Assembly: GCA_030765065.1 (NCBI GenBank)
Contig: CM060984.1
Span: 105,257,488 to 105,321,487 of the forward strand
Reading direction: 5' to 3'
Source of the DNA: Deroplatys truncata
Lineage: Eukaryota; Arthropoda; Insecta; Mantodea; Mantidae
DNA: 64,000 bases
Shown in pieces: positions 1,401-63,560 of this stretch. The translations under genes were made by a program, and so were the position numbers. Under the pieces are notes generated by a model, which searched no databases, was not told where the DNA came from, and saw only the letters and a list, made by a program, of their open reading frames with translations. The first letter of the stretch is position 1, and each line of letters opens with the position of its first letter.

Positions 1401-2689
1401 TTGCCCTTGTTTGATACAAATTACAAGACGCCATTAAAAGCATCGGCTCGTGAAAATAAAAGCTCTTCAGAATAAAGGGCATTTAATTTCATATTCTAAG
1501 TCACATAGACGAAATGCCACACTTTCTCAACTGTACCAGATTGCTGGAAAGGGTGGTGAAGGTTTTACAAGATGCGTTTGACGTTGTGTGTTTTTCAAAT
1601 AAGAATTGATATGTGAATGATTAAATTATAATTTATGGCTGTATGGACTTTAGTAAAACAAATAATACCGATCTTTGTTCACTCTATTACGAAGAATTGC
1701 TCCTTGGAAGGAACTATTCTAATCTCTTTCATCCCATATTTCTGTTTTCTGAGTTTAGCGGCTTATCACCCTTTCTGAAACTAATTTCGTTTTAGTTTTA
1801 CATTTTCAGAATAAGAGAAACGCTTTTAACTTGATACTTCTCATTATAATAAAACCTACCTTGCTTTATAATTTCACTAATAGTGATATTTTACCATTCA
1901 TGACTCTTATATTTAATCGTTTGCTCCTTAAAGCGCACAATTTCATTGAATTTGAAAAGTTTCTCTCCAAATAATTTAATTAGCAACTGGAAATTGGCTC
2001 GGAAACATCATTTGAATGAACACCAATTTCTGGTTTAGGCTCCCCCACATGGTTTTTAAAACCCATAATTGAATTTTGGCGTTTGCTGCAATGGAAATAT
2101 AATTATGAAACTAAATTGTGTACTGCCCCAAGCCACAACAGAGCTTGGAGGGAAAAAGCAATGAAAACTCGCTAACAGCAGACACAAACTTAATGTCTGT
2201 TTCACAATGAAAAATTATGAAAAGTTATAACCTCTTCAAATATATAGGCTGTGTAAATAGAATTTGTAAGGTGTAATATCGAATTACATATACAACTTGA
2301 CACTTGAAAAGTGGAACATACAGTTAAGTTTTCACTTCCAGAAATAAACGTTCGTTTATTTGGGAAAGCTCATACCGCCATTAAATACAATTTTAAAACA
2401 TAATGAAGATACTTATTATTTCAAAACATAACGTATATGTTTAATATTGCTCTATATTAAAAAAAATTCAAAATCTTTCTCCGCTCAATATCCTAAAAAC
2501 TACTCTTATAAAAGCTTATTCATGTATTTACTTCTTGTTATTACAGCATTTACTCATTTCTTCATAGGTATAATAAAAATACAGTAAGCTAAAGCGACAG
2601 TCAAAACTTTTGAAAGTCGGATGTCCTTGAAATTACATTTTCTTTGAATGAACACAAAAAATAAATTAATTAATAAAAGAATAGCTTTT
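1401..2689. other. Unassigned AT-rich DNA
   Basis: No recognisable element or gene. Short chance frames only. Confidence 0.45.
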
Positions 2690-2985
2690 GCATTTGAGAA
2701 AATTTTAAGTATCTGAAAATTCGAAACCAATAACAAAGAATATATCGGAAATGGTTAGTGCCACAAAAGCATTTTATTTGATATAAATTTGCGGAACAGA
2801 TCTACTTTTTCTAATAGTACAATTTTGTATATTCCTTATGGTTTACTAGTTATACAAAAGTCATTCAAAATAAACAGGACATCACTGGATTTTTCTATAA
2901 AACTCAAGATGTGTATTTTATTTGTCATGAATATACCTTAAACATACCTATGGTATTTTAATCAAAATACGTAGTAGATAAATTA
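2690..2985 (+). mobile_element. R1 repeat, internal fragment
   Basis: An internal piece of R1 in forward sense (forward is defined by the full copy at 44927-45835). It matches the segment with CGAAAATGGTT-like text, a GATCTAC block, TTATGGTTTACCAGTTATAC-like text and the closing ATTTTAATCAAAAT block. Both R1 termini are missing, and the piece is clearly diverged from other copies. Confidence 0.65.
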
Positions 2986-3374: not shown

Positions 3375-3600
3375 CCCGCATTCACTATATATTTAATGTA
3401 CATGAAAACAGACTGTATATCCTGAATTTTCTGGGATTGGCATTGAAGACCTGCTCATTCCAAAGCAACTTTGTATAATTTTGTATAATGGTTAAACCGT
3501 TAGAGTGAGACAAAGATGTACTATACATAAAATAACTAGGCTCTTTAAAACACATAATTTATTTGAATTGTAATGCAAATGTAACGCATCAGATTTTTCG
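3375..3600 (-). mobile_element. R1 repeat, internally deleted fragment
   Basis: A reverse-sense R1 piece. It runs from the TGTATATCCTGAATTTTCTG block through TTTAAAACACATAATTTATT and then jumps directly to the R1 outer end, TGTAACGCATCAGATTTTT. The distal third of R1, with its inner GTAGAGAAAGT repeat, is missing. Confidence 0.65.
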
Positions 3601-15030: not shown

Positions 15031-15148
15031 ACATTCTCTACTACGTATAGTAAGTAGGAAAAGTATTGTATTCCACCCGAAATTTCGATACCGAGATTTC
15101 ACCGGAAATATATGTTTTGAGGCCGCCTGAAAAAAAATCAGAAAAAGG

Positions 15149-15179
<31 letters not shown>

Positions 15180-15860
15180 CTGAACAGCATAACTCAAAAA
15201 CGAAAAGTCGGATCAAAACTAAACTTAGTATTTAAGTTTAGTCTCTTTCTAAGATGTGACACGAAGATTTTCAAGAAAATCCCTCCCACCCTAGATTACC
15301 CTTTACATGGAAGATTTTTGGAAAATGTTGATTTTCTAAAAAAATGACACTAACGTATTTAATTAAGATACCATTTATTAAAGGTGTTTACATGACAAAT
15401 AAAATGTATATCTTGAATTTTCTGAGAAAGTATTTTCTTCTACTTCATTTGGACAAACTTCGTATAATCTTGTATAGACGAAAACGTAGTACACAAAAAA
15501 TTTAGATCTCTTTAAAACATACAATTTATTTAAAATAAGTTTTTTGTGGTATAAGATTTTTCCAAGATCTCTATTATTAAAAGCTCGAATTGTTTATTTC
15601 TTGGTCATTCTCTTAAAGTCCTGTCAACATTCAGTTGTTTTTCGTGGTTGTATAGTATTTTATGACCAGCATACAGCGTCCAATTCTTGAACAATTGACT
15701 ATCTCTGTTCCCTTTGCAACTATAACAAACTATGTAATGTAGGTATTTCTGTAAAGTTTTATTTGGATTTAAATGCAGTAGACAGCAATTGTTTTTGTGT
15801 AAGAATAATTTTTTTACTCATTAATAAGCGATACAGGGTAAGGAAAGTCATGTGACTGGA
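15031..15860 (-). mobile_element. R1 repeat copy, near full length
   Basis: Reverse-sense R1. It begins with the palindromic end TCTCTACTACGTATAGTAAG, then ATTCCACCCGAAATTTCG, an expanded GT tract, AACAGCATAACTCAAAAACG and AATTTTCTGAGAAAGT. It closes with GGGTAAGGAAAGTCATGTGAC. It belongs to the subtype whose distal third reads CATTCAGTTGTTTTTCGTGG. Short frames on both strands are non-genic. Confidence 0.85.
15151..15179 (+). repeat. (GT)n microsatellite inside R1
   Basis: About 14 GT units at the fixed R1 position where other copies have only two to four. Confidence 0.95.
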
Positions 15861-16059
15861 TTACTTGATATGAGAAGTGACTCTTTAATCACGGTTAGAG
15901 TCACTTTTTAATAAACGCATTTTTAAATGAAATTTTCTGCAGAATTGCAAAAACAAACTTAGAATAGTTCTAGCTTCTATTATGAGTCCAACAACTTGGA
16001 TTGAGGTTAACTGATACTTTTCGCAATAGTATGGCCTGATTGATTCATAGATATTGCAG

Positions 16060-17985
16060 TTTTACTTTCTCTACTACGTATAGTAGTAGGGAAGGTATAG
16101 TATTCCACCCAAAAATTCGTTGCATGTTTTGAGATTCCCCGAGTCCAAATAAAGCATTTTTGGAAACATGGCCGTGTTTGTGTCGATGTATCTATCTGGG
16201 CGACTGTGAACACCATAACTTAAAAACGAAAAAGTCGGATAAGTACTAAATTTTGTATTTTCGTTCAATATATTCCAAAGATGCAACACGAAGATTTTAT
16301 ACAAAATTCCCTCACCTCAAACTACCCTTTCCATGGAACATTTTTCGGAATGTTTGATTTTCTATGAGCGGCTAACGATTTTGATGAAAATACCATATGA
16401 AATACGTATATTCACATGAAAAATAAGTGCATATCTTGAATTTTCGGGGAAGATCCTGTGAATTTTGAAATTTTGGAATTTTGTATAATCTTGTATAACT
16501 GGTAAACATTAAGCGATAGACGAAAATTACTACACAAAAAAGCAGATCTCTTTGAAACTCACAATGTATTTCCACCACCCTAGCTTATTCATCTTACTGA
16601 ATGACTTGATCAGGAGGAGAGTACAAAAGCTACAGCGGAATTTGCGGATCAAGGCTAAGGGGTAACGGCTAGACAGAAAGTAAGAACTAGGAATTCTCCC
16701 TCTTCCCAAAGCATTTGTTGAAAACACATGTAAGTCTTACATTCTGGGTTTATTTGGAAAGGTCTTTCAGGAAATAATATATGTTGTTGGATAAAGCCTG
16801 AATTATGAAATTATCACCTCTCGTGAAGTCGAAAGTTGTAGCACAATATTACGTAAGATTAATACACATTACTTATATTGGAATTACAGATCTTTTAAGT
16901 GTATATTAACAACTGTCCACTCACGCTAGCCTAAACCAATAAACCCGACTTTACTAAGTCCCCGTAAGGCGGTAAACAATAATTAACAAAACCAAGATGA
17001 AATAAGCTTTACACACATTCACAACTTACTTTTAAAGCTAAAACTAGCAATTTAATAAACTCTGTGATGAAGTTAACAATTTTAATAAGCAGTCTCGTTT
17101 AATATATTTACATAAACACCCAACCGTTTAACAATTCTATAAATTTTATGGACACAACCGTTATTTAAAGGCATTAAGAGAAACTGAGAAAAACTAATAT
17201 AATTATCTAAAACAGTCAATAGTATTCAGAATTTGTGTACATTAATCCACATGACCAGAATACAATTATAACAGGAATTAAATTTAAGAAAACCATAAAT
17301 CACAAATCTGGCTCTGTTAAATATATCTTGTATACAAGACGGCAGGTAGCAGAATAAATCACAATGGGCGAGCCCTACGAAAACCCCGACGGAAACCCTC
17401 TTAGCAAATGTAAAACTTCATAGCTTATCAAGCCATTCGACAACGCACCAATCTCAACATGTGTCCTGTTGCATAAACAAAGGAAGAACTCCCTACCCGT
17501 CATAAAGCCCAAAGCAGCCCAAACTAGGAAAAGCACCGACGCGCAACGAGCGGGTAAAAATAAAACTAACAAGAAACATAATGCCATCTGCCGTGATCTA
17601 ATGGTATCATTTAAAGTTCACAAAAATGTGCGATCAGCACATATTTAAATAAGTTTACTTTTGTGGTATACCCGTTTCTGAGATATCCGTTATTAAAGGT
17701 TCGAGTTGTTCATTTCTTGGTCATTCTCTTAAAGTCCTTCAACCTTCAGTTGTTTCTCAAGGTAGCATGAACACGGTATGGTATTTTAAGGCGGCATACA
17801 GCGTCCTGTTCTTAATAATTTTGACTATCGCTGTTCCCTTTGTATTTATAACGAAATGTGTAATGTAGCTATTTCTTCAAAGGATTATTTGGATTAAAAG
17901 TGGTAGATAGAAAAATAAACTTGAGTAAGATACGATAATACTAATAAACGATAGAAGGTAGAGAAAGTCATGTGAGCATAACATC
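16060..17985 (-). mobile_element. R1 repeat copy split by a 1.07-kb insertion
   Basis: The R1 palindromic end (TACTTTCTCTACTACGTATAG) is at 16062 and the opposite end (GGTAGAGAAAGTCATGTGAG) is near 17955. The element is interrupted between the CACAATGTATTT block and the AAATAAGTTTACTTTTGTGG block by foreign DNA at 16572-17641. Without the insertion, R1 is about 0.85 kb. Confidence 0.85.
16572..17641. mobile_element. Unclassified 1.07-kb insertion with 5-bp TSD
   Basis: It lies inside R1 and is bracketed by TATTT at 16567-16571 and 17642-17646, which fits a 5-bp target-site duplication. Ends read CCACCACCCTAGC... and ...GTGCGATCAGCACA. The ends are not inverted repeats and do not have the LTR TG...CA pair in one orientation. 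The interior is AT-rich with a GC-richer patch at 17340-17590. No transposase, RT or gag text was found. The 70-codon minus frame at 17375-17587 has no recognisable family. It could be a truncated LTR element or a non-autonomous DNA element. Confidence 0.6.
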
Positions 17986-18861
17986 AGATTTTGACTTGTG
18001 TATTTGTGCCGGTTGAAGTTCGTTTATTCCCCATCTGATAGTAGGGTCAATTATAGCACCAGAGGATGAGCCAGGCTTTATGGCTATTATATCTATTCTT
18101 CTGTATGATCCGTTTTCCAACACGCCGTATACCTCTTATATGCTAAATGTAGGTTGGATTGCGATTTAAAATTTTAGAATTCTATAAACCTCCACCTCAG
18201 ATGGCAGATTTAGCGGTAGAGGCGTACCAAGTTTCATTAAGCGCGAGTAAGGGATTACCATGATTTGTTCAGATTAAACGATGGTGTGTGCAGGGGATAG
18301 GTAACCATTTCCTTGGTGCCGAATGCTTGAAGTTCCGAATAAGAGAGGGAAATATTTCTTCGCTTTGTTAAATGATCCTAGTTCTCAGATGGAGATGGGA
18401 AAATATCGGAGTGCACAAAACGATTCTCTACATAACAGCGCTTTTGTGCTGAATAAAATCTTGGGTATCACACGGATCAAGTTTTCTAGGGGCAATGAAC
18501 TCGTAGCACTAGATTAAAATAGGGAGAAAATATATCAGCTTTCTACTCCATAAGAGCAGTATAATGTATCGGAATGCTTTATTTTATCGACACGGAACAA
18601 TTATGGAGGCAATGTAAGAGGCTATAGGTAAATTCATTGTTTTATCGACATGAAATAAAAAAAAACAATGAGGTATAAAGTATTTCTCGCTCCTTCTGAT
18701 ATTCAAAAGTAAGTTGTACTTTCTCGAGAGTTAACCTAAGATTAAGCATTTAGCCCACCTGCAACTTTTTTAAAAACTGAATCTTTATGTGCAACGAAAA
18801 AATTCACCACCGTTTCCACATTACATTTACCATGTCTTATTTCCTCTTGCTTTTCTATTTC
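17986..18861. other. Unassigned DNA
   Basis: No element recognised. The 64-codon frame at 18323-18517 is unassigned. Confidence 0.45.
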
Positions 18862-19945
18862 CTTTTTACTTTCTCTATTACGTATAGTAAGTAGGGGAGG
18901 TATTGGATTTCATCCAAACATTCAATACCGAGAGATCACAGGAAATACATGTTTTGAGGCCCCCGAATCCAAAAAATACATTTTTAGAAAAGGTCCGTGT
19001 GTGTCTGTGAACAGCGTAACTCAAAAACGAAAAGTCGGGTAAACACCAAACTTGGTATTTAGGTTCAGTATATTTCAAAGACGCGGCACGAAGATTTTCA
19101 AGGAAATCCCCTCAGCTATCCTTTACATGAAACATTTTTCGAAAATTTTGAGTTTTTCAAGAATGGCTATAACGATTTTCATTAAAACATCATTGTTTAA
19201 GGTATTTTCATGACAAATAAAACGTATATCTTGAATTTTCTGAGAATTCTTCAAAAGTACCCTTCTTTCTGAATGGTTTTTGCATAACTAGTAAACGTAA
19301 GATACAGACAAAATTTTTCAACACAAAAATGTAGAGCTCGTTGAAACACCATTTATGTCATACACATTTTTTTTGTGGAGTGAACTATTTCCAAGATATT
19401 CCTTGTTATGTTTCTGAATTTTCCAACACTTATACTTCTTAACAAATGGGAATTCGTTATGAGTTTTTTTAATGTTTTTTTAAATTTATTTATTTAAAGT
19501 CGCGCTAACTGCATGGTCATATGCGACTCATCAATTAATTACATTAATACATAATTAGAAAAACAGTTACATGTTCACAAAGATGAACATTGAGAGAACA
19601 TGTAAAGAGGACATAAAATAAATAATGGAATTGCAATGTTAATTTTAACATGGTCAAATAAATATTAATATTAAGATTGGTATTAGAGTATGAACGAGAT
19701 TGAAATGAAACATTTTTTAATGTTCTGGACATGCTGAGAGAATGAAAGATTTAAAGGATTTGACTATCGCTTAAATCCTACCATATTCAACTTGCACCTA
19801 TAAGAAAATTAGCAATAAGTTTCTGCAAATGTTTATCTCAATTAACATAAAGTAAATAGAGAAAAAGCGTTTGTAAAAATAGTTTGTACAAGAGTAGAGA
19901 AAGTCATGTGAGTGCTACGGTGCAACGCATCAGATGTTTTTTTCA
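18862..19945 (-). mobile_element. R1 repeat copy split by a LINE tail
   Basis: Begins TACTTTCTCTATTACGTATA at 18866 and ends GAGTAGAGAAAGTCATGTGA followed by GCATCAGATG near 19935. It belongs to the subtype with ACTATCGCTTAAATCCTACC. A 236-bp insertion sits at 19477-19712. Without it the copy is about 0.83 kb. Confidence 0.85.
19477..19712 (-). mobile_element. 5'-truncated non-LTR element with 12-bp TSD
   Basis: Flanked by a perfect TTTTTTAATGTT duplication (19465-19476, 19713-19724). On the minus strand it ends GTTAGCGCGACTTTAAATAA followed by an ATAAATTT-type tail, and there is no open frame. A long TSD plus A-rich 3' tail is the mark of target-primed retrotransposition, so this is a short LINE 3' end or a LINE-mobilised SINE of unknown family. 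Confidence 0.75.
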
Positions 19946-20524
19946 CTTCATACACAGTATTGATCTTTTTATAAAAGTGTATTTTTTGGGTTCAGGGGAC
20001 CTCAGAACATGTATTTACGATATCGAACTCTTGGGTGGAACACAATACTTATTCTGCTTAGTGTACGCACGTTATAGGGAAAGTAAAAATGCAGAGCAGG
20101 ATTGTCAGACCCATCTTTCTAGCTGCTATTATACAGGTAGGATGTCCAGTTTGCGGAGAGAGAGAAAGAGAGAGAAATCGAAAGAAGCGCGGCGGTTAAC
20201 AAAAAGCCCTGGTTGATAGGATGGAACAGGATTTTGATCACGAATTTTCTGTCTGAGCTTTCTTAAATTTTAGAAATTTCCCTAAAATTAGTCTTTTGTA
20301 AAAACGGAGCTAAAATTTGCGAGAGGTCGATTGATCCTTTGGTCAGTCAATTATTACCATTTATTTGTGGTCTTGCTTCAGAAATAGACCATAAGTGAAT
20401 AACAAATGCATACTGTAGATTCTTTGTGGCCCGATAGAATAAATGCATTTGTGAAATCTTTAGTTCGATAGAAAGTGTATTTCAATTTCAAGTTACAATT
20501 ACAATTACATAATGTCATTATGAA
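19946..20524. other. Unassigned DNA
   Basis: Nothing recognised. The 110-codon frame at 19884-20216 starts inside R1 and shows no family resemblance. Confidence 0.4.
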
Positions 20525-24215: not shown

Positions 24216-24757
24216 GTTTTTTTTTGCTTTTTCTCACCTGCTGTCTTTTCGGAGAAAGCGAGGTGAATATAATCCTGCCGTCTGCACAATTCTATACAGT
24301 CGCTATCGCATAATACCCCTACAGGTCCCCTGAGTCATACGTGAAAATTGTTCTGCGTTATACTAACTCACCCTTCATATGGGCGACGTTAGGTACCGAA
24401 CACGCTGACACATTCTCTTTGTGTCGAGCACTTGTAGATCTGCATTCCATGTTCTATTTCCCCAGTGTTTGTTGTTCACTCCAAAGGAAGGTAATGTAGG
24501 TGTTATTTGAACTGTGTAATAGTCGTATCTCACGGGATAGCCCAGTTCTGACCGCAGAATTGATGGGTTTCACGCTAGAGAGAAAATGGCTAGTGCTACC
24601 GCCGTTGAAATTCCAAATACAGTGCTCTCAAGCGTTGTGTTAGAGCAATATGCGATGAAACTTCATGACCATTTATTATATTCTTAAAATCCTTCCGAGG
24701 ACATTCATTACTACAGCCACACAAGTAATGAAAATTTCTCACAAGAGCTGTCATATT
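24216..24757. other. Unassigned DNA
   Basis: Nothing recognised. Confidence 0.45.
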
Positions 24758-25390
24758 TTACTTTCTCTACCACACACATAGTAGACAGAGGAGGCATTGC
24801 ATCACACACAAAAATTCGATATCGAGATTTCACCTATATGTTTTGAGGGGCTCCGAATCCAAATAAAGCATTTCTGGAAACATGTCCGTGTGTGCGTCTG
24901 TATCTGTCTGTCTGTCTGTAAACAACATATCTAACTCAAAAGTCAGAAAATACCAAACTTTGATTTGAGTTTGGTATCTTCCAAAGATAGACACAAAGGT
25001 TTTAAAGATAATCCCCAACCCAAACTACCCCTTACATGGGACATTTTTCGAAAATTTTATTTTCTCAAAAATGGTTAATGATTTTGATTAAAATATCAGG
25101 TTTAAGATATTTTCATTGCAAATGAAATGTATATCCTGAATTTTCTGGGAATGTCTCCAAAACTCCTCTTCATTCTGAATGACCTTAGCATAGCTGGAAA
25201 ACCGTAAGAAATACACAAAAGTTTACTACAGAAAAATGTAGATCCCGTTAAAACACAAATTTATATCATATACATTTTTTTGTCGAGTGAACCATTTCCG
25301 AGATATTCCTTGATATTTGTTTAAATTTTCCAATACTTGTGCTTTTTCTCAAATGGGAATTCATTATTCGTTTTTTACTTTCTCTACTAG
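24758..25390 (-). mobile_element. R1 repeat copy, truncated
   Basis: Begins TACTTTCTCTACCACACACA and runs through ATTTCACCTATATGTTTTGA, GTCTGTCTGTCTGT and AACCATTTCCGAGATATTCC. It stops at ATTCGTTTTTTACTTTCTCT near 25388, so the distal third is missing. The last bases look like the start of a second R1 palindromic end, cut by the transposon fragment that follows. Confidence 0.8.
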
Positions 25391-28614: not shown

Positions 28615-29939
28615 TATTCTAGGTTTGCATGCTTTCTTAAGCAATATTGTTACTCCAAAGGAAGCTCTTCTATTTTGAGGGACACCACAATAAAACATTA
28701 TATAATTTCCTAGTTGATTACTCCCTTTTAATTCTTTTTTGTGTGTGAGTATACAAATATGGATTCCCTTTTCATGTAACTCTTGTCCTATTAGCATCTC
28801 TTTGTAGGATATTCTGCGGACATTCCAGGTAGGTATCCTAATTAGCTCTAAAGTGCCAGATCGTTTATCGTTATGTCTTGACCTAGACGATATTACTTCA
28901 TCATGCCGGCTATTTTCTTGAGATATGTAGTACATGATGTGTCCCCTGGCTGCGTTACGAGCGCCACGCAGGATTAGATTGGGGATGGAGCTGCCATCTC
29001 ACCGCCTCCAACCTTGCAGGGCATTTATTCGGTTACCATCCCTAGACGAGTTTCTTTCACATCAGCCGTCGAAGTTTGCCTATCCGCTGCCATCTTTGGG
29101 GACTTTTTAGTTTACCAAGGTGATGGCATATCTCCTTGTGTTCACACAAGGTAGACTGCTTATCCCGGCAGTCGCTCGACCTGGCTACTTGCACTGCCTG
29201 AGAGACACTGGGCAATGGGGTCCCCACATCCTTACGCCTACCTTTTTCTAAATGTGTTTTTTTTCCTTTCTCTACTGCGAATAGTAAGTAGGGGAAGTAT
29301 TGCATTCCACCCAAAACTTGTTTACCAAGATTTCACTGGAAATGCATGTTTTTAGGCGCCCTGAATCCAAATAAAACGTTTTTGAAAACATGTCCGCACG
29401 TGTGTGTCTATGTGCCTGTCTGTGAACAGCATAACTCGAAAACCAAAAGTTGGATAAATACAAACCTTGGTATTTAAGTTTAGCATTTTACAAGGATGAG
29501 ACACGAATAGTTTCAAGAAAATCCCCACACCCCCAACTACCCTTTATTTTCTAAAAATAGACTAAATATTTTGATTAAAATAATACATGAAATATATTTA
29601 CATAAAAATAACTGTATACCTTGAATTATCTGGGAATAGCCTAGGAAGTCCTCTTGCTTCGGAAGGAATTTATATAATCTTTTATAACTTGTAAACGTTA
29701 AGTGATAGACGAAAACGTACCACAAAAATTGTGGATCTCTTTAAAACAGACAATTTACTTAAAATAAGTTTTTTGTGGCATAAACCACTTCCGAGATATC
29801 CGTTATTAATGGTACGAAATCTTCATTAGTTGATCATTGTTTAGTCCTTTTACCATTCAGTTGAAGCTCGCGATTGCACGGGAACAGTATGGAATTTTAA
29901 GGCTAGCATATAGCGTGAAATTCTTAAACATTTGACTAT

Positions 29940-29998
29940 TGAGAAAATGGTTATATTGCTGCAGTTGGAGGGCCAAGCTTGATGAAGTAACTGCCTCA
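29940..29998 (-). repeat. 3' terminal direct repeat of element E
   Basis: 59 bp, similar to 37436-37495 with a handful of differences concentrated at one end. Starts TGAGGCAGTTACTTCATCAA on the minus strand. Confidence 0.7.

Positions 29999-37106: not shown

Positions 37107-37152
<46 letters not shown>
37105..37152 (+). repeat. (ATT)n microsatellite
   Basis: About 16 ATT units between the E leader and its gag region. Confidence 0.95.
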
Positions 37153-37155
<3 letters not shown>

Positions 37156-37435
37156 GTATAGTATTGGAATTTTCTGAGTTTTTGTTCTGGCTGTGTTAGT
37201 AAACCTTTTTATTCTGGTGTTCCCTCGTAGATTGTAGTTGAATTGTTGACTGTGTGTCCCGTACTGCTGAAAGAATTGTTGCTGTCTTTGAATGATGTTG
37301 ATGATTTTTAAGTTCTCTGAAGTTCTGTGAAGTGAAATATTGTAGTTTTGTTGATTCTGGTAGTTCTATGAGGTTCATTGATCTCCTCTTTTCAGCTGTA
37401 CTCGCCAATTTTCGCCTCACGTTTAGGTGCCAATT

Positions 37436-37495
37436 TAAAGAAGTGGTTTATATTGCTGCAGTTGGAGAGCCAAACTTGATGAAGTAACTGCCTCA
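37436..37495 (-). repeat. 5' terminal direct repeat of element E
   Basis: 60 bp, TGAGGCAGTTACTTCATCAA onward on the minus strand, immediately followed by the PBS-like AATTGGCACC. Confidence 0.7.
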
Positions 37496-37782
37496 CTATC
37501 GCTGTTCCCTTTATAGGTATAAGTAACGAAATGTGCAACGTCGGTATTTATGCAAATGATTATTTAGATTAAAATAAGGCACATAGAAAAATAAGCGTTA
37601 GTAAGAATATTTTATATACACACTAATAAGCGATAGAGGGTAAAGAAATTCATGTGAATGTAACAATTTTTATTTAAGAAATTTATTGAAATGTTAGAAA
37701 CTCGCTAGTTGTACTGAATCAAGAAAAATAACTTTTTGCTTACTTATATTGCTCCTAGTTTTAGCAATATTTGATCACACAA

Positions 37783-38330: not shown

Positions 38331-39051
38331 AAATTCAGAACACTAGAATTTTTTTAAATCAGATGGGTAGTAGGTAGTAGTAGTCTGCGAAGCGGAACAG
38401 GGATTATTGTTTGTGATAGGAATGAGAGAAAATTGAATATCGAGTTAAAGAAACCTTCGTATGAAACAAACTGTTTCTATGGAACTTGTTACGAATGGTG
38501 ACCGTAGGATGGAATTGACAGACCTACGTTTTTAGTCACCTCAAAGTTGTGTCTGTAAACTGAGAATACAAATGACCGCCTCAGCGCGTACCTGTAATAA
38601 TAAGCTTTTCACGGTAAGCAGTATTAACTTGATAAACTTTAAGGGATTCTGTTTTCGCCTCAGTGATTTGTATTCGCGAGTTAATCCAATTAATATTCAT
38701 AACGGAAACATGTGGTAGAGACAGTAGTTTATATTGCTTTCCTTCCTTTGCCATTCATGCTATACAATATCAAAATGCAACAGCGCGTGAAATTTATGCC
38801 CTAATGAAGTTTAAACCTTGTTTGTGGATGTAGTGAAGTATTCGTATGTCAGAATTTTCCCACAACAGGCTCATTGTTGGCTTAGAAACTAAACACTTTA
38901 CTTAAAAAAAATATATGTTACATTTACATATCTTTCTCCATCCTCTATGGTGTATTAGTGGGTACACAAATTATTATTTCAAAAGTTTATATTACTGTCT
39001 ACTTATTTTAATCCAGATAACGCTTTCTGGAAATACCTGCATTACATTTAG
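38331..39051. other. Unassigned DNA
   Basis: Nothing recognised. Confidence 0.45.
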
Positions 39052-39255
39052 TCATTACATTAGTTTTACATTTACCAAGTTTGGTGTTTATCGCACTTTT
39101 CCTTTTAGGTTATGCTGTTCACAGACACACATACTGACCTTTTTCTAAAAATGACGCTTTTTTATTCGGGATGCCACAAAACATGCATTTCTGGTGAAAT
39201 CTCGATTTCGAATTTATGTGTAAAATACTAGATGCATGGTAGAGAAAGTAATAAA
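39052..39255 (+). mobile_element. R1 repeat, 3' fragment
   Basis: Forward-sense last 0.2 kb of R1: ACCAAGTTTGGTGTTTATCG, TTATGCTGTTCACAGACACA, AACATGCATTTCTGGTGAAA, ending GCATGGTAGAGAAAGTAATA. The terminal palindrome is degraded. Confidence 0.8.
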
Positions 39256-40262: not shown

Positions 40263-41854
40263 AATAAATCTATGTAAGTCGCAGTACCCGAGCTGTCCTC
40301 TGTTGTATAAGCTATACATATACCACACTTGCATCGCAGTATATTATTTAAGCTCGTTGCAATATATGCCTCTGTATATGACTACGGGTAATGCCTCTAT
40401 AATGCTAGCCTATAGTTTTAAATTACTAAAAACTGTGCCATATACACAATGAGTATTCACCCAAAGCGAAGTTCAAAGACATTCTTTAGGATAATTCTAT
40501 GGTAACCTCTTTCAGCTAATAAATAGTATGTCTTCATACTTAATAATACATGGCGATTTAACAGCATGATGCTAAAACAAATAAGCCATAATTTTCCTCC
40601 TACATTTAAATTTATAGAACATTCTTGTTCAAATGATGGCAGCCAAAACATTTTTTTTGAGTTTAGTTTTGTTATCCAACTGAAAACTGCAAATTTATAG
40701 ATCACATGCACGTTTCATTTCATAACCTTTTTTATAAGTAAACATGTATTTGAATATAACTTGAAAAGTTAATTTTAACATCAAGAAGACAATTTAAATG
40801 CAGTTATATTTTCATTTTAAGTTTGCCTATCATGACATATGAAATTTAAAATGATACTCCTATAATATAATAGTATATATGAAAGCGTAAGTAATTCATT
40901 TCCTCTAACATTTCTTATCACTCTTCTGAAATCTTCATTGTTATCACTTTTTTTAAAAAAACTGATGGGTAAAATATGCAGCGTGGAAAACTGTTTGGGG
41001 CAGAAAAATAGACACTAGTGATTATTATTGTTCATGGAGACAAAGATGAAAGCAGAAAAAAGAGAAAATGGAGATGACTGGATGTGAAATAAAGGTGCTG
41101 CCCTTAGGCATAAAACTATGGCATGCTTTAATTATGTGTCAATTAAAGGATTTGAAGCATTTAGTTAGATTACCAACAGAACCGTTTACGACACACAACG
41201 AACGCACTGACTGCTATCCATTTGTGTATTTCTGTTTATATGCTTCCATACTGATGTTCAACTTGAGTGTTCATCATATTTTATGGGGAGGGCGTTCTCA
41301 AGTAGTAGGTATATTCTAACAGTACTTCTGCACGGACTGTCGGGAAGGAGGAGCGGTTCCCTGTTGCCTTAAGAACTGTAGTTCCTTTCTTAAAGCTGAA
41401 CGCTTTACAGGATGGAAGGTGTTAGAATGCGCTCCTTTTAAAACCACATATAATTCTGTTACAAACAAAAATTTAATTAACAATTTTGTTGTATATTTCA
41501 TAGTGTTGCCAAGTACATCCTCTACAGCACGCCTAAATTATTCCAGTTCCTAACATTTTTCCCACGGTTATTACACTCATAGTCCTGTATTTGATATTAA
41601 CCGATAACGTTTAGCAATGCCTTGGATATCGACCAACCATGCAACTGTGGTTGACTCAGGAGAATGGCTTTGTCCTTGAACTGCAAGTGTGCAGTGAACT
41701 AGGGAGCTTCTTGCCTACGACGCAAATAGTGTAATACCAGCAGTTAAAAAATATTGTCAACAAGTGCAGTTTCACATGTGTACGGTCATAATTATATTGT
41801 TTTACATGTATGCATTTTAGAGCCCATGTTTACTGGACATTTTTTCTTGCTGTA
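40263..41854. other. Unassigned AT-rich DNA
   Basis: Frames of 61-84 codons occur on both strands, but none resembles a known family. No terminal repeats seen. Confidence 0.4.
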
Positions 41855-42500
41855 TGCTGGTCTTAAAATTCCGTACTCTTTTCATGAAATCGCGGGAAGC
41901 AACTGAAAATCGACAGGACTTGAAAAGAACGACAAAGTATTGAACAATTTGAACCATTGAAAACAATTATCTCGGAAATGGCTTATACCACAAAAAAGTT
42001 ATTTGAAGTAAATTGTGTGTCTTAAAGGAATCTATGTACATAATTTGTGTAGTACGTTTTCGTCTATGGCTTAACGTTTACACGTTATACAAGCTTATTC
42101 AAAATTTCTTCCGAATGCAGAGGACTTCGCGAAAATCAAGATATACACTTCATTTTTCATGTACATATCTTTAACCAAAATCCTCAGAGCTATTTTGGAG
42201 AAAATAAAACAATTCGACAAATGTTCCATGCGAAGGTTAATTGGGTGTGGGGGAAATTTCTTAAGAATTTTCGTGTCGCATCTTTGGAGGATGCTTAACT
42301 TAAGTACCAAGTTTGGTGTTTATCCGAATTTTCGTTTTTGAGTTACGCTGTCCAAATATACACACACATGAAACTTTTTCTAAAACTGTTTATTATTCAG
42401 CTGACTCAAAACACTTATTTCCGGTGAAATATCGACATCAAATTTTTGGGTGGAATGCAATACCTCTACCTACTATGTACGTGGTAGAGAAAGTAAAAAA
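41855..42500 (+). mobile_element. R1 repeat copy, 5'-truncated
   Basis: Forward-sense. Starts within the distal third (GCTGGTCTTAAAATTCCGTA) and ends ACGTGGTAGAGAAAGTAAAA. The terminal palindrome is TACCTACTATGTACGTGG, slightly degraded. No microsatellite expansion (ATACACACACATG only). Confidence 0.8.
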
Positions 42501-42699
42501 TGTGTTATCCAAAACGGCTCTTCGCTCTTTAGTTCGGTTCAGCGGAACTCTGCTGTATTGCTAAATTATTGAAATCAGATTTTGCTCAACTGTTTATCTA
42601 CGTGCTATAATTAGTCACTTCATTGCTGTCTTCAACAATAGAACACTTTTCAGTACAGATACTGTTAACGGGAATTTAGGCATGTATTAAAAATATTAT

Positions 42700-44262
42700 T
42701 TTTACTTTCTTTACTACGTATAATAAGTAGGGGAAGTATTGCATTCCACCTAGCATTCCGATGACGGAATTTTACAGGAAATATATGTTTTCAAGTCCTC
42801 TAAGCAAAAAAGAAATTTAGAAAAGGGTCCATGTGTGTGAACAGCAAAATTCAAAAACGAAAAAAAATCAGATAAATGCCAAATTTAGTATTTAATTTCA
42901 GTATCTTCCAATGATGCGGTATGAAGATTTTCATAAAAATTCCCAAATGCCAAATATTTTTCGGGATTATTAATTTTATAAAAACTTACTCCAACGATTT
43001 TGATTAAAATACCATATATGAGGGTAAGCCAATATGTATCCACACACTATTTTTAATTTTTGTAGATTGGCTGTATTGGTTTGTGTGCACGCACATCGAA
43101 ATGTTGTTCCTTTGTCTCCGCTTGTGGAACGTTTGACCGTATCACTCCAGTGAGTGTTGCATTGTTGCATAATAAGTATTGCTGCACCCCTCACCGTTTG
43201 CAGTTATCCGTTTTTCGTCGTCTGAAGGTTTACACGGAGCCAAAATCCGTCGCAGACTTTTCACACATAATGGGGACAATGTTTGCCTGGGCGAAATGTG
43301 TACGAATAGTGTACGAATGGACTAAAAGGTTCAAAATTGGTCGGACAACTGTGAAGTACGAGAAAGAGCAGGACGCCCATCCATATCCATAGTGACGCCA
43401 ACAATGGGCAAGTCCGTATCCTCATTCAGAGAACCGAAGATTGATTGTTGATTAAGTGGCAAACCATATCTTTTTTGGTCCACTTAAAAATACCTTAAGG
43501 AGTAATCAATTCACCACAGACCAAGAAGTGAAGGAAGCGGTGCTTATATGGTTTGCTACTCAACCGAAAAAAAAATTCTGAAGGCATCAGAAAGCTTGTG
43601 CAACGGTGGACCATGTGCATTGCGAAGCAAGGAGACTACGTCAAAAAGTGAGATAATTGTAAGTTTATATTATTGTTAAAATAAATTTAAATAATTAAGT
43701 GCGGATACTCCTTGACTTACCCTCTTATTAAAAATATTTTATGACAAAATGTATATCTTGAGTTTTTTTTTTTGGGAATAGTCAAGTGCTCTTCATTCGG
43801 AAGAAATTTTATACAATCATGTATAAATGACAAACAATAAGCTACAGACGAAAACGTACCACATAAAAATGTAGATCTCATTAAAACATACAATTTATTT
43901 CAAATAATTGTTTATGGTATAAGCCATTTCTGAGATATTTGTAATTAGTGGTTCCTAATTGTTAATTACTTGGTCATTCTTTCAAAGTGCTGTCGACATT
44001 CAGCTATTTCTTGCAATTGCATGGAAGGATTATGGTATTTTAAGGCCAGCATATAGCATCCAGTTTCTAAAAATTTGTCTACAGCTGTTCCCTTTGCATC
44101 TGTAGCGAAATGTGTAAAGCAGCTGTTTCTACAAAGGTTTATCTCGATTAAAATGAAGTAAAAATAGAAAAATAAACTATAGTGAGAATAGTTTGTACAT
44201 CCAGTAATAAACGATAGAGGGTAGAGAAAGTAATGTGAATATATCGCATCATATTTTTAAGG
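42700..44262 (-). mobile_element. R1 repeat copy split by a mariner derivative
   Basis: Begins TACTTTCTTTACTACGTATA at 42702 and ends GGGTAGAGAAAGTAATGTGA followed by CGCATCATATTTT. The mariner derivative at 43019-43725 sits between TTAAAATACCATATA and TTAAAAATATTTTATGAC. Without it R1 is about 0.85 kb. Confidence 0.85.
43019..43725 (+). mobile_element. Internally deleted mariner (SETMAR-type) element
   Basis: TIRs TGAGGGTAAGCCAATATGTA (left) and, reversed, AGAGGGTAAGTCAAGGAGTA (right), with TA on each side. The interior keeps two ends of a mariner transposase. The N-terminal HTH text is RIVYEWTKRFKIGRTTVKYE. The C-terminal text is LFGPLKNTLRSNQFTTDQEV, then KEAVLIWFATQPKK and, in another frame, text corresponding to LVQRWTMCIAKQGDYVKK. 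The catalytic core between them, about 150-200 codons, is missing, and frameshifts occur. A non-autonomous 707-bp derivative. Confidence 0.85.
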
Positions 44263-44926: not shown

Positions 44927-45662
44927 AAAAAATCTGATGTGTTACACTCACATGACTTTCTCTACTCTTGTACAAACTATTTTTACAAACGCTTATTCTC
45001 CATCTACTTCATGTTAATCGAGATAAACATTTGCAGACTCTATCTTATTGCTAATTTTCTTGTAGATGTAAGGGGAATATATATTTACAAGGGCAATATA
45101 GAAATACAGTAGCCTTTAAGCACATACAAATCTCTTAATAGCTGGTTGCTAGGTGCAGCACCATTTCCTTTCCCACAGATTAATACTCTTTGCATATCCA
45201 AGACAAAAAAAATGAATAACGAATTCCCATTTGAGAAAATAAGTATTGAAAAATTTAAGAAAATAACAAGCAATATCTCGAAAATGGTTCACTCAACAAA
45301 AAAAATGTATATGACAAATTGTGTATTTTAACGCGATCTACATTTTTGTGTAGTAAAATTTTGGTATAATCTTATGGTTTACCAGTTATGCAAAAGTCGT
45401 TCACAATGGAGAATAATTTTGGAGACATTCCCAGAAAATTCAAGATTTACATTTTATTTGTCATAAAAATATCTTAGATATGATATTTTAATCAAAATCG
45501 TTAGAGCCGTTTTTGAGAAAACTAAAATTTTCGTAAAATCTTCCATGTAAAGGGTAATTTGGGGTGGGGGATTTCCTTGAAAACCTTCGTGTCGCATCCT
45601 TGGAAGATACTAAACCTAAATACCAAGTTTGGTGTTTATCCGACTGTTCGTTTCTGAGTTAT

Positions 45663-45699
<37 letters not shown>

Positions 45700-45835
45700 C
45701 ATGTTTCCAAAAATGCTTTTTTTGGATTCAGGGAGTCCCAAAACATGTATTTCCGGTGAAATCTCGGTATAGAATTTTTGGGTGGAATACAATACTTCCT
45801 CTACTTACTATACGTAGTAGAGAAAGTAAAAATAT
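44927..45835 (+). mobile_element. R1 repeat, full-length reference copy (DINE-1/HINE-like)
   Basis: Forward sense, about 0.91 kb. It begins TCTGATGTGTTACACTCACA and has the subterminal ACTTTCTCTAC about 25 bp in. It passes AACGCTTATTCTCCAT and GTTTACCAGTTATGCAAAAG, carries a CA tract about 140 bp from the 3' end, and ends with the palindrome CTACTTACTATACGTAGTAG overlapping GTAGAGAAAGT (the inverted 11-mer). No transposase. Subterminal inverted repeats, a near-3' microsatellite and a 3' stem-loop are the described features of DINE-1-type, Helentron-associated elements. That assignment is inference. The long frame at 45564-46034 is discussed under findings. Confidence 0.85.
45664..45696 (+). 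repeat. (CA)n microsatellite inside R1
   Basis: About 16 CA units at the fixed R1 position. Confidence 0.95.
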
Positions 45836-47311: not shown

Positions 47312-48135
47312 TATTACTTTCTCTACTACGTATAGTAAGTAGGGGAAGTATTGTATTCCAGCCAAAAATTCGATATCGAGTTTTCACCGGAAATACATGT
47401 TTTGAGAACCCCTGAATCCAAAAAAAGCATTTTTGGAAACATGTCCGTGTGTGTCTGAACAGCATAACTCAGAAACGAACAGTTTGATAAACACCAAACT
47501 TGGTATTCAGGTTCAGTATCTTCCAGAGATGCGACACGAAGGTTTTCAAGAAAATCCGCCACCCCAGATTACCCTTTACATGGAACGCTTTTTAAAAATT
47601 TTAATTTTCTCAAAAATGGCTCAAACGATTTTGATTAAAATATCATATGTTTAAGATATTTTTATGACAAATGAAATGCATATCTGGAATTTTCTGGGAA
47701 GTCTCCAAAAGTATTCTTCATTGTGAACGACTTTTGCAAAACTGGTAAACCATAAGAGATGGACAAAATTTTATGTAGATCGCGTTAAAACACACAATTT
47801 ATGTTATATACATTTTTTTGTTGAGTGAGCCATTTTCGAGATATTGCCTGTTATTCTCTTAAATTTTTCAATACTTATACTTTTTCTCAAATTCGTTATA
47901 CATTTTTTTATGTCCTGGTAATGCAAAGAGAATGGAATGCGCTAAATAGCAACCAACGCTTAAAAGATTTGACTATCGCTTAAAGCCTACCATATTCCCC
48001 TTGCACCTACAAGAAAATTAGCAATAAGATTAGCATCTCGATTAACATGAAGCATATGGAGAATAAGCGTTTGTAAAAATAGTTTATACAAGGGTAGAGA
48101 AAGTCATGTGAGTGTAACACATCAGATTTTTTTTA
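47312..48135 (-). mobile_element. R1 repeat, full-length copy
   Basis: Reverse sense. Begins TTACTTTCTCTACTACGTAT at 47314 and ends GGGTAGAGAAAGTCATGTGA followed by GTGTAACACATCAGATTTTT. Unexpanded microsatellite site (GTCCGTGTGTGTCTG). The minus strand is open for 78 codons at 47326-47562, ending in the terminal palindrome. Confidence 0.88.
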
Positions 48136-53069: not shown

Positions 53070-53689
53070 CTTCCACAAAACGAAGCACTCTTAGAGAAGA
53101 CAAAGATAACACAGTTTATTAAAAGCTAATGTTCTTATCAGACCGTTTCACTGTTTATCTTCCTATGAAGGTTTGCTGAACTCTTGAAGGTTTGCTACCG
53201 GAGGATACGTTAATAGCATTGCTCTATTTGCCTGCATGTCTACACGCAAGCACGAAACCATTTGTGAACCGTTTCATCTTCGTATTTAAATTCACATTTT
53301 TATAATGGCGTGAAGAATATTTTTCTACGTATCTCAAAGTTGGCTGCAATCATATCATGGGGGCTTAGGGGGATTAATTCCGAAGATACAACATTGGAAC
53401 AACAAAAGATGGATTTTGTATCCAAGGATTGCTCCTTCACACTAATCTATGTAAGCTAAGATTGGAATTCTGAATAGGATTTGAAACATTTCTTGCGACA
53501 GGCAGCACTCGAACCAGGGATATTTGCATTACCTGGGCGACGCAGTATCATTGTGTCATGACATTGCTTCGAAAATACAGGTTCAGATGAGAGAAGTTCA
53601 GTGCGTTTTCGGGTCAACATCACTGTGGCGTAATGCGTCGGTATGGTAACCTCAGGAACCATATTCGGGTCCCAGTTGTGTCACTGAAT
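53070..53689. other. Unassigned DNA
   Basis: A minus-strand GGTTCGAGTGCTGCC near 53505 is B-box-like, without a clear A box. Nothing else recognised. Confidence 0.4.
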
Positions 53690-54137
53690 TTTGACTTTCT
53701 CTACCATGTACTTATAATAGGTAGGGAAGTTATTGCATTCCATACAAAAATTCGATAAAGAGATTTCAACCGAAATACATGTTTTGAGTCCCCTGAATCC
53801 AAAAGAGCGTTCTTAGGAAAAGGTCCTCACACAGCATTTTTGAGAAAATGGAAACATTTGAAAATGTTTCATTAAAGGGTAGTTGGAAGTGGAAATTTTC
53901 TTGAAAATCTTCGTGTCGCAGTTTTGGAAGATATTGAACCTAAATACTACGTTTACATTTATCCAGCTTTTCGTTTTGAATTAGTTGTTCACAAATATAG
54001 ACATAGGCATAGCCCAAAAGCACTTTTTGGATTCAGGAAGCCTCAAAACATGCATTTCCAGTGAAATCTTGGTATAGAATTTTTTGGGTGGATTACAAAG
54101 CTTCCCCTACTTACTATACGTATTAGAGAAAATAAAA
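53690..54137. mobile_element. R1 fold-back: two R1 3' ends in inverted orientation
   Basis: 53690-53830 reads as the reverse-sense R1 terminus (GACTTTCTCTACCATGTAC to AGGAAAAGGTCC). At about 53833 it switches to forward-sense R1 (TTTTTGAGAAAATGGAAAC onward), which runs out to its own terminus (ACTTACTATACGTATTAGAG). Both outer ends are therefore the R1 palindromic end. No short unique spacer separates the halves. Confidence 0.8.
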
Positions 54138-54263
54138 AGGCTACTTTCGTCATAAATACATACTGAGCATACTGAGCATCAAACTTCAGAAATTCACTGG
54201 CACACAAAACGAACGCAATACAATGCATACATTTATTCAACATTTAGTTGCTTTAGGGACTTT

Positions 54264-55112
54264 ATTGCTTTCTCTACCACTATAGTAAGTAGGGGAAGTA
54301 TCGCATTCCACCCACAAATTCGATACCTAGATTTCACCGGAAATACATGTTTTGAGGCCTCCTGAATCCAAAAAATTTATTTTTGGAAACATGTCCATGT
54401 GTGTGTGTCTGTGAACAGCATTACTCAGAAACGAACAGTGGATTAAACTTCAAACTTGGTATTTAGGTTCAGTATCTTCCAGAGATGTGACATGAAGATT
54501 TTCAAGAAAATCTCCCCACCCCAGATTACTTTTTACATGGAAAAGTTTTCGAAAATTTTAATTTTCTCAAAATGGCTCTAATGATTTTGATTAAAATATA
54601 ATATATTTAAGATACTTTCATGACAAATAAAATGTATATCTTGAATTTTCTGCGAATGTCTCCAAAAGTGTTCTTCATTGTGAACGACTTTTGCATAACT
54701 GGTAAACCATAAGAGATAGACAAAAGTTTACTACACAAAAATGTAGATCGCGTTAAAATACACAATTTATGTCATATAGATTATTTTTGTTGAGTGTACC
54801 ATTTTCAGGATATTGCTTGTTATTCCTTTAAATTTTCAAATAAAACTTTTTTTCAATTGGGAATTCGTTATTCATTTTTTTGTCCTGGTAATGCAAAGAG
54901 AATGGAATACTCCACATAGCAACCAGCTCTTAAAATATTTGATAATTGCTTAAAGCCTACCAATTCCCCTTGCATTTGCAAGAAAATTAGCAATAAGATT
55001 AACATCTCGATATCTCGATTAACATGAAGCATACGGAGAATAAGCGTTTGTAAAAATGGTTCGTACAAGAGTAGAGAAAGTAATGCGAGTGTAACACATC
55101 AGATTTGTTTTA
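54264..55112 (-). mobile_element. R1 repeat, full-length copy
   Basis: Reverse sense. Begins TTGCTTTCTCTACCACTATA and ends GAGTAGAGAAAGTAATGCGA followed by GTGTAACACATCAGATTTG. Distal third is of the AATGGAATAC-CC-CATAGCAACC subtype, as in 47312-48135. Microsatellite site short (GTGTGTGTGTCTGTG). Confidence 0.88.
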
Positions 55113-57094: not shown

Positions 57095-57639
57095 TACGTG
57101 TTCATGCTGTTCGCTGAAGGGCTGTTTCGATCTAATATCTTTGTACTTTCGATAGTGGAATACATTTATTTTAAAATACTGAAAATATATCATAAATTAT
57201 TACTACTTAATGATGGTAATGAAAGCCACAAATTAATTATTTTAGGATATCAATAATTTAAATAATTAAATTATAAAATGCAGGATAAAAGGGGCCAAAG
57301 CTTATGGGATGATTCTATGTGCTACACTAATTCAATAGTATTCTTTTATTTCCATAATTGTTATCTACACATATAAAGCAATTCACGTGTGTGACAGTAC
57401 CATTCTACTGTCACTTCATAGCATGTAAAACCTAATGCATTATTAATGGGCCACCAGGCACGCGCAGTCTATATAGGCCAGATAAAGTTTCATAACACGC
57501 TTACATCTTCGAAATGGGTGTAAGAAGGATATAGCAGGTTAAACCATAGTCAGGTTTTAAAAAGGTGGATCATTATGTGAGAGTTATGAAAACCCATACG
57601 CTTTGGATTACCATGACAAAAAGCCAATAGGAACATAAC
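57095..57639. other. Unassigned AT-rich DNA
   Basis: Nothing recognised. Confidence 0.45.
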
Positions 57640-58245
57640 ACTTAAAAAGTAAAAGTATTTGAAAATACAGACCAATAACAAAGGATATCTTGGAAATGAT
57701 TTACACCACAAGTAATTTTAGTTGACTTAAATTGTGTGCTTTACCGAGATATGCAGGTTTTTGTATAGTAGGGTTTTGTCCATCTCTTAAGTTTAGCAGT
57801 TATACAAAATTATACGAAATTTCTTCCGAATGAAGAGGACTTCACAGGTTATTCTCACAAAATATTCTAATTATCACATAAATACTTACATGAGGTTTTA
57901 ATAAAAATTGTACAGCCATTTTTGAAAAAATAGAAGGTAACAAAACATTTTCCATCTACTAAGTAGCTTGGGGTGGAGAAATGTTCTTGAAAATCTTCAT
58001 ATCACATTCTTGGACGTACTTAATTTAAATATAAGGTTTGGTATTTTACCGCTTTTTCGTTTTTGAGTTGTGCTTTTCATAGATAGACAGGCAGATAGAG
58101 AGACACAGATACACACAGATAATGTTTCTAAAAACGTTCTTTTTTCGATTCAGGAAACCATAGAAGTGTATTTCCGGCGAAGTCTCGGTATCGAAGTTTT
58201 GGATTGAGAGCAAACTATAGCCTAAATAGTAAATAAAGTAAAAGA
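57640..58245 (+). mobile_element. R1 repeat copy, diverged and 5'-truncated
   Basis: Forward sense from TTTGAAAATACAGACCAATA through AGCAGTTATACAAAATTATA, CTTGAAAATCTTCATATCAC and GTATTTCCGGCGAAGTCTCG to TAGTAAATAAAGTAAAAG. Terminal palindrome lost. Confidence 0.75.
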
Positions 58246-62329: not shown

Positions 62330-62386
62330 TAATACTTTCTCTGCCGCTTACCTGAGATGAAGTATTGCATTCGGTTCAAAGGTGTT

Positions 62387-62433
<47 letters not shown>

Positions 62434-62610
62434 TGTGTATGTGAACGAAATATATATACTTAAACAACTCTTACAATTATATCTTTATTTTTATATCTTT
62501 TCCACAAACTATTCTTATAAAATCTTATGTTTTTATCTACTTAATGTTAATCGATATAACGTTTGCAGAAATACTTTGATTATAATTTCCGTTGCAGATA
62601 AAAATGGAGT
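62330..62610. mobile_element. R1 chimera: both R1 ends, centre lost
   Basis: 62330-62445 is the reverse-sense R1 terminus with its GT tract (GAAGTATTGCATTCGGTT). From about 62500 the text is the forward-sense beginning region of R1 (AAACTATTCTTATAAAATCT, TTAATGTTAATCGATATAAC, GTTTGCAG). The two outer thirds are joined in conflicting orientation. Confidence 0.6.
62391..62438 (+). repeat. (GT)n microsatellite inside R1
   Basis: About 20 GT units plus interrupted TTGTGTGTATG. Longest GT run in the window. Confidence 0.95.
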
Positions 62611-62769
62611 AATGGAGGTCTTTATAAAGCGGGCCGTTATATTCTGGCCTTTACACATTCTTTCCATAATATAGCGAAAAATAAACGAATACTGACAGCA
62701 CCTCAAAAAGCGATAAACGTTTTGTGCAATACGTTTCCTTTATCTCCTATGGTCTACCAAATTTACAAA

Positions 62770-63035
62770 TTTAATCCCAAAAGAAGAAGACAACAGGTTA
62801 TTTAAAGAAAATCTAAAACATAATTTCATTAATCATGTAAATATCAAAAACATATTTTATAAAACTCATCAAGTGATTAAAAATATATAAAATAACGAAA
62901 TATTTTCCATATAATGGGTAGCTCGTGTTAGAGATTATTCTTTAAAACATGTGTTGGAAGATGTTTAACTTATACAGTTTGGTATTTATCAGACTTTTCA
63001 TTTTTTAGTTGTGTTGTTCTCTCTATTTCTCTCCC

Positions 63036-63082
<47 letters not shown>

Positions 63083-63185
63083 AAATATAAATTACCGGTA
63101 AAATCTCAATATGGATTCTTTTTTGGAATGGAACACCATATTTCCTCTACGTACTACAAGTAGGAGTTAGAGAAAATAAAAAAGG
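62770..63185 (+). mobile_element. R1 repeat, 3' half, diverged
   Basis: Forward sense: ATTTTCCATATAATGGGTAG, TGTTTAACTTATACAGTTTG, a CA tract, GTAAAATCTCAATATGGATT, and end GAGTTAGAGAAAATAAAAA with a degraded palindrome. Confidence 0.7.
63039..63080 (+). repeat. (CA)n microsatellite inside R1
   Basis: About 20 CA units at the fixed R1 position. Confidence 0.95.
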
Positions 63186-63560
63186 TTGAATAAATAAGAA
63201 ATATAATGTTTAAAGCAGTAAATTCTAAAAATTGTAGGCCAGCATTTTTAGGAATTTTCCTCACCCTAAGCAATCCCATGAATAGAATATATTTCCATCT
63301 TTTTATTTTCTCAAAAACGGTTATGTTGGTTTTGGATGAATATTGCATGTGTAATATGTTGCATTGCCAAATAAAATACATGTTTTTTAAATATCTTATG
63401 AGACTTTCTTTACAGTTACAAATTGTATAATATAACTAGGAACCATAAGAGGCAGACACAGTTTACAGAAAAAATGCAGATTCCATTAAATTAGTCTGTT
63501 ATGTAACATTGTGGTTTCTGTGACATTAACCATTTCTAAAATCTTCATTGTCTTTTCATT
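63186..63560 (-). mobile_element. R1 repeat, internal fragment, inverted to its neighbour
   Basis: Reverse sense: TTTTATTTTCTCAAAAACGG, AATAAAATACATG, ATAACTAGGAACCATAAGAG, ATTCCATTAAATTAGTCTGT. It abuts 62770-63185 in opposite orientation, like the 53690-54137 fold-back. Confidence 0.65.

Follow-up and report, generated by a model that had tools for sequence, protein, structure and literature searches.

R1, a dispersed repeat of the window, is very probably a non-autonomous Helentron family oriented opposite to the original prediction

The 64,000-bp stretch of DNA analyzed here (the window) contains a dispersed repeat family, R1, which blastn and profile searches of the window resolve into 25 intervals covering 11,463 of the 64,000 bases, or 17.9% (Table 1). 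The interval set consists of the merged matches of two profiles at an E-value of ≤1e-3 and one short fragment recognized by its motif and microsatellite only, and it was grouped manually into 20 loci, in agreement with the "about eighteen copies or fragments" of the original prediction. The profiles were built from three and five copies of the window itself, so that those copies match by construction, and copy b3 contributes approximately 58 bases of insert that are not R1 sequence. The high-copy family proposed in that prediction is real: a complete copy lies within 44927-45835, and the end motifs recur far above chance, with ACTTTCTCTAC present 24 times at ≤1 mismatch (chance mean 1.21), TCTGATGTGTTACACTCACA three times at ≤3 mismatches (chance mean 0.01) and the predicted palindrome seven times at ≤3 mismatches (chance mean 0.00), counts that in each case were reached by none of 100 shuffles. 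Three copies (E1, E2 and E3) are complete and uninterrupted. E4, b2 and b4 keep both ends and carry extra sequence inside, so that both ends are well preserved in only six copies, while the remaining loci are fragments, split or decayed. Full-length identity among E1, E2 and E3 is 80-85% by blastn, no two copies within this window are near-identical over their whole length, and the copies look old. Taken alone, R1 has the appearance of an unremarkable, old family of non-autonomous elements.

Table 1. Copies, fragments and parts of R1 in the window
Feature	Position	Strand	Basis
Copy E1, complete; 895 bp including the 5' subTIR and the 3' tail as far as CAGA	44933..45827	-	
E1 oligo-T at the 5' boundary	45828..45832	-	
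E1 5' subTIR ACTTTCTCTAC	45817..45827	-	
E1 partial inverted copy of the 5' subTIR, GTAGAGGAAGT; 10/11 complementary, spacer 12; 15-pair hairpin with the subTIR	45794..45804	-	
E1 (GT)n microsatellite	45664..45696	-	
E1 3' subTIR GTAGAGAAAGT	44955..44965	-	
E1 3' tail CATGTGAGTGTAACACATCAGA, stem ATGTG/CACAT, then oligo-T	44933..44954	-	
Copy E2, complete	47316..48126	+	
Copy E3, complete	54267..55103	+	
Copy E4, two ends kept; ~240 bp extra at 19471-19710	18863..19935	+	
Copy b1, full length, 3' tail decayed	15031..15861	+	
Copy b2, two ends kept; ~1.07 kb interruption (16572-17643)	16060..17992	+	
Copy b4, two ends kept; ~0.7 kb interruption with inverted ends (43020-43725)	42699..44258	+	
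Copy b3, 5' part; ~7.5 kb of other elements separates it from the 3' part	29260..29941	+	
Copy b3, 3' part, decayed tail	37492..37664	+	
Copy b5, 5' part	41847..42499	-	profile
Fragment ending inside its own T-run, where another ACTTTCTCTAC starts	24756..25376	+	
Second ACTTTCTCTAC, nested within the T-run of 24756-25376; only the 5' side of the insertion seen	25377..25387	+	
5' fragment	53689..53827	+	profile
5' fragment	53835..54138	-	profile
Fragment without 5' end; CTGT/CTAT-like letters at the place of the microsatellite	57516..58212	-	
Fragment including the 5' end	62501..63180	-	profile
5' and 3' pieces, middle missing	38917..39254	-	profile
5' fragment	19953..20089	-	profile
Old fragment	2475..2975	-	profile
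Old fragment	3391..3568	+	profile
Probable 5' end and GT tract	62334..62443	+	motif and microsatellite only, no profile match
Old fragment	63245..63555	+	profile

Several other elements share the window with R1. The insertion in copy b3 (29940-37495, approximately 7.5 kb) is bounded by 48-bp copies of one sequence that are 95.8% identical, very short and LTR-like, with ACTAT on both sides by eye, and it contains a near-perfect 220-bp palindrome at 30533-30752 (96.4% self-complementary). Nested inside it, 31432-36162 has 1.13-kb direct repeats that are 99.6% identical; by eye, its ends are TG...CA, ACAT flanks it on either side, and the first repeat is followed by TGGCGCC. By its anatomy this is an LTR retrotransposon, probably a recent one. 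Between its repeats, the open reading frame at 32921-34033 carries tandem repeats of 66 and 99 bases, and two open reading frames scanned inside the element gave no Pfam match. Elsewhere, a long Tc1-type transposase reading frame lies at 22281-23081 (DDE_3, HTH_Tnp_Tc3_2), a reading frame with DUF4817, mariner-like by eye, at 11677-12039, and a 36-bp tandem repeat at 59468-59622 within a serine/threonine-rich open frame without a Pfam match.

The complete copies of R1 share one order of parts, namely a T-run, the 5' subTIR, its partial inverted copy, the microsatellite, the body, the 3' subTIR, a short stem and a second T-run; in E1 this reads T(n) ACTTTCTCTAC-12 nt-GTAGAGGAAGT ... microsatellite ... 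GTAGAGAAAGT-CATGTG-loop-CACATCAGA T(n). At the 5' ends the 11-bp ACTTTCTCTAC, within the 11-15 bp of HINE subTIRs, follows directly after the T-run. In E1-E3, 22 nt separate GTAGAGAAAGT from the T-run that follows it, and the length of this tail varies in both directions among other copies. In the available sections of the descriptions of HINEs, a partial inverted repeat adjoins the 5' subTIR, which is found at the 5' end or a few nucleotides inside it, and the 5' module also holds the microsatellite; the 3' subTIR is placed clearly inside the element and is separated from the 3' end by a palindrome (PMC4067079, PMC2374699, PMC7492417). Since this order fits only the strand opposite to that read in the original prediction, the orientation of R1 is reversed, and the TCTGATGTGTTACACTCACA taken there for the 5' end is the 3' tail of the element. 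"Reversed" is meant relative to the published convention, as the naming of DINE-1 ends is arbitrary without open reading frames, according to the part consulted of Yang and Barbash (2008, PMC2374699). The inner 11-mer, predicted about 25 bp in, exists and was measured at 22 bases from the TCTGATG end. The predicted terminal palindrome is likewise present, but it corresponds to the 5' subTIR with its inverted copy and hence marks the 5' end instead of the 3' end. We therefore regard R1 with high confidence as a non-autonomous Helentron family (HINE, DINE-1-like) in the orientation reverse to that first given.

The palindrome at the 5' end is part of a larger hairpin, which includes the entire 11-mer in E1 and E2 and comprises 15 pairs in these two copies and 9 pairs in b5. 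Folding of three such sequences gave z-scores of -3.97, -3.24 and -2.92, with 1, 2 and 1 of 200 shuffles equally stable. Over 16 aligned 5' ends, 89.1% of the cells of the 15-pair helix are standard-paired, compared to 41.0-56.3% when the partner strand is slid. Changes on both sides occur in three pairs, a value reached by 58 of 500 shuffles, and in five cells, reached by 5 of 500, while the observed percentage paired, score and number of further pair types were reached by 37, 44 and 451 of 500 shuffles, respectively; the covariation support for the helix is modest. The best ungapped complement of the 11-mer matches at 10 of 11 positions in E1, at a spacer of 12, and at 6-9 of 11 in the other 15 copies. 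It beats 95% of shuffles in only 6 of the 16 copies, and its best place differs from the expected one in several of them.

The stem ATGTG/CACAT at the 3' end is rightly placed but weak. Over eight aligned 3' ends, 89.7% of its cells are paired versus 10.0-55.0% when slid. However, none of the five sequences folded stands out from its shuffles, a good part of which are as stable (z -1.50 to +0.86), and folding predicts the intended stem for two of the five. No both-side change occurs, and 500 of 500 shuffles do as well. Among the individual copies, E4 has a loop eight bases longer and keeps its stem through a G-T pair, b2 lacks two columns and one pair with them, E3 has one mismatch, and the 3' ends of b1 and b3 are decayed. 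This distribution of stability is an argument for a HINE in the orientation of the original prediction, with the TCTGATG end as 5' and the strong hairpin end as 3'. A hairpin is expected as terminator at the 3' end, among the ends folded only the hairpins of the strong end beat their shuffles, and the opposite end begins with TC. In that direction, however, the subTIR would be terminal at 3' and 22 nt in at 5', with the microsatellite near 3', which is the opposite of DINE-1 and the HINEs, and the flanks would read A/A. We consider this orientation very unlikely. The Rep/helicase gene runs in the plus direction in most, though not all, Helentrons according to the available part of PMC4067079.

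Returning to R1 in the reversed orientation, the predicted CA/GT tract is present and ends approximately 140-170 bp from the 5' end. An anchor just after the tract was matched in 12 of the 15 copies examined, one of the 12 (24760) being off-target. The remaining 11 place the tract end at 140-170 bp from the start of the interval, that of 57516 being an interval without a true 5' end. The tract of E1 has 16.5 GT units, and a clean tract is no longer present in each of the 11 informative copies. By eye and without a chance control, CCGT leads into the tract in 5 of 11 copies (b1, b2, E4, E1 and E2) and CTG closes it immediately ahead of (TG)AACA in 6 of 11 (b1, b2, E4, b3, E2 and E3), the two occurring together in four. 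The letters following the tract may resemble other insect elements. The order within the tract is similar to that of the (CCGT)n(CTGT)n tract interrupting block A of DINE-1 in the portion of PMC2374699 consulted.

The insertion sites are rich in T on both sides. T precedes 15 of 17 5' ends and adjoins all six well-preserved 3' ends, and TT adjoins 14 of 17 5' ends and five of six 3' ends. Among the six bases before the 17 5' ends, T accounts for 83 of 102, and among those after the six 3' ends for 31 of 36, compared to a mean share of 32% each for A and T; the 5' count was reached by none of 20,000 random samples. These counts omit the two decayed 3' ends (b1 and b3), the loci without a recognizable subTIR (2475-2975 and 57516-58212) and 11-mer matches judged not to be R1 5' ends (e.g. 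1521, 38725, 63403 and 45794). The T/T flanks appear only in the reversed reading. The six well-preserved copies have no target duplication other than Ts and no longer fixed one; a consistent duplication had been named in the original prediction as grounds for abandoning its class. The T-rich flanks include equal flush T-runs of 4-5 on the two sides of E1, b2 and b4, and none longer than TT in E2 and E3; a short T duplication may exist at R1 sites. An uninterrupted empty site was not found when the 250-bp flanks of the six copies were compared with the window, which gave R1 copies or stretches of ≤20 bp. Taken together, the order of features, the T-rich junctions and the lack of a non-T duplication in six copies give good support to the HINE/DINE-1-like class first proposed.

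The same junctions bear on three other classes. A derivative of a canonical Helitron, with 5' TC, 3' CTRR and insertion between A and T, would account for TC at one end of R1 and a hairpin near the other, but R1 has CTRR at neither end, carries paired 11-bp repeats and is bordered by one and the same base, T (or A), at its two ends, which makes such an origin highly improbable. The equal flush T-runs of E1, b2 and b4, together with the inverted 11-mers, might instead be taken to indicate a MITE of a cut-and-paste DDE transposon with 11-bp ends. Yet at one end the 11-mer lies clearly inside the element, E2 and E3 lack a flush duplication beyond TT, and DINE-1 itself was formerly taken for a MITE, as stated in the available text of PMC2374699; we give this reading hardly any weight. 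A SINE or other RNA-derived repeat would likewise be short and abundant with T/A-rich junctions, but the inverted 11-mer stands at both ends of R1, and the window contains neither a tRNA gene (ARAGORN, bacterial settings) nor an Rfam family at the gathering threshold, leaving an RNA origin with a negligible probability.

One insertion appears to be caught in place within the Helentron-like family itself. At the junction 25376/25377, a second R1-type 5' end begins in the T-run of an R1 fragment, and the same T-run is uninterrupted in E1, E2 and E3. Followed to 29260, this insertion yielded no R1 3' end. Directly after its subTIR, 25377-25640 looks by eye like the C-terminal end of a mariner-like transposase, with no Pfam call, and may be either a captured piece of such a gene or a product of chance juxtaposition.

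Aligned by halves, the copies differ in how they group. The 5' blocks of ten copies (approximately 350 bp; 69-91% identical) do not separate into clear groups, whereas the 3' blocks of eight copies fall into E1-E4 (79-90% identical) and b1-b4 (71-80%), with 57-74% between the groups and a branch support of 0.998 in a FastTree tree. As the 3' blocks split and the 5' blocks do not, a single 5' block occurs together with two or more distinct 3' blocks. A division of the complete element into subfamilies was rejected, since only the 3' blocks separate. The alignments suggest either module exchange or an old divergence of the 3' part alone. A far-reaching version, in which R1 is an undescribed HINE lineage with one 5' block and at least two 3' blocks at a double-digit share of the host genome, is doubtful in our view; if true, a single rolling-circle passenger would be among the main DNA components of the host.

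Most likely, R1 is a passenger element, copied by a helicase made elsewhere. A Rep/helicase domain was found with Pfam neither in 20 scanned of the 295 open segments of ≥55 aa nor in six frames of 25377-29260 and 16064-17992 and three frames of 42704-44258. Above the Pfam cut-offs, the scanned segments and frames gave Tc1-type transposase (DDE_3, HTH_Tnp_Tc3_2) and DUF4817; the matches under the cut-offs were traces of endonuclease-RT and some of coiled-coil-like character. By analogy with the known family, an autonomous Helentron elsewhere in the host genome would supply the Rep/helicase(-endonuclease) in trans. This enzyme would recognize the R1 ends and nick at T, after which one strand would be displaced and copied by rolling circle, with the 3' stem marking the end of the copy, and the single-stranded copy would be joined into T-rich DNA without target duplication. 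Such a mechanism is taken over from the known family, and the window would bear on it through the anatomy of the copies and their junctions only.

Exact patterns of the R1 ends or core had no match in viral, bacterial and archaeal contigs, which as non-animal collections are little informative for a host that is presumably an animal, perhaps an insect. In the literature, judged by title, the two 11-mers did not occur in transposon papers, six longer R1 strings were absent, and five core-like strings were found only in unrelated work. The analysis defines boundaries and orientation for a repeat that fills 18% of the window. Correctly defined ends allow the host genome to be searched for an autonomous Helentron with such termini, and the T-run junctions offer a means of testing target choice and joining by Helentrons. 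The interest of R1 is low unless its density in the window holds genome-wide.

R1 is most likely a further family of a known kind. The Hel-2 Helitrons of Lepidoptera, in the sections available of PMC4344730, resemble it in their 5' inverted repeat, subterminal inverted repeats and (CTGT)n downstream of the 5' subterminal repeat, and probably in their 3' stem-loop, but R1 has neither the TC/CTRR termini nor the A/T flanks given in their description. DINE-1/INE-1 of Drosophila, in the part consulted of PMC2374699, has a 5' subTIR within 2 bp of the end and an internal 3' subTIR, a partial inverted repeat at the 5' subTIR, a tandem tract in the 5' block and T-rich/TT sites, all as in R1, and a stem-loop after the 3' subTIR that the weak stem of R1 probably matches. 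The subTIR of R1, however, is 11 bp instead of 13 bp and of other sequence, and its tract is mostly GT instead of (CCGT)n(CTGT)n (PMC2374699). Its 3' stem has 5 bp compared to the 7-11 nt stems reported for DINE-1, and the three complete copies have no central array, TRF finding only a 2.1-copy 19-bp repeat in E1. Compared by eye, none of the Drosophila subTIRs in the published table resembles ACTTTCTCTAC (PMC2374699), and DINE-1 proper, which is characterized by a DINE-1 subTIR and a 90-bp core, was rejected on the subTIR sequence.

HINE-Mo, the Culex HINEs and other HINEs share with R1 a subTIR near the 5' terminus and internal at 3', strings of T at the boundaries and probably a 3' palindrome and the absence of target modification, as far as described in the available part of Thomas et al. 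(2014, PMC4067079). HINE-Mo and the Culex HINEs have Helentron partners, whereas R1 has no known one, and the 3' tail of R1 (22 nt and Ts) is shorter than the 38-60 bp of mite HINEs (PMC4067079). Cg_HINE of the Pacific oyster differs from R1 in its central satellite-like array, but resembles it, in the sections available of PMC7492417, in its 11-12 bp subTIR with a complementary inverted repeat 1-12 bp away, the microsatellite in the left flank, the 3' subTIR in the right flank, T-rich sites and probably the right-flank palindrome and the absence of target duplication.
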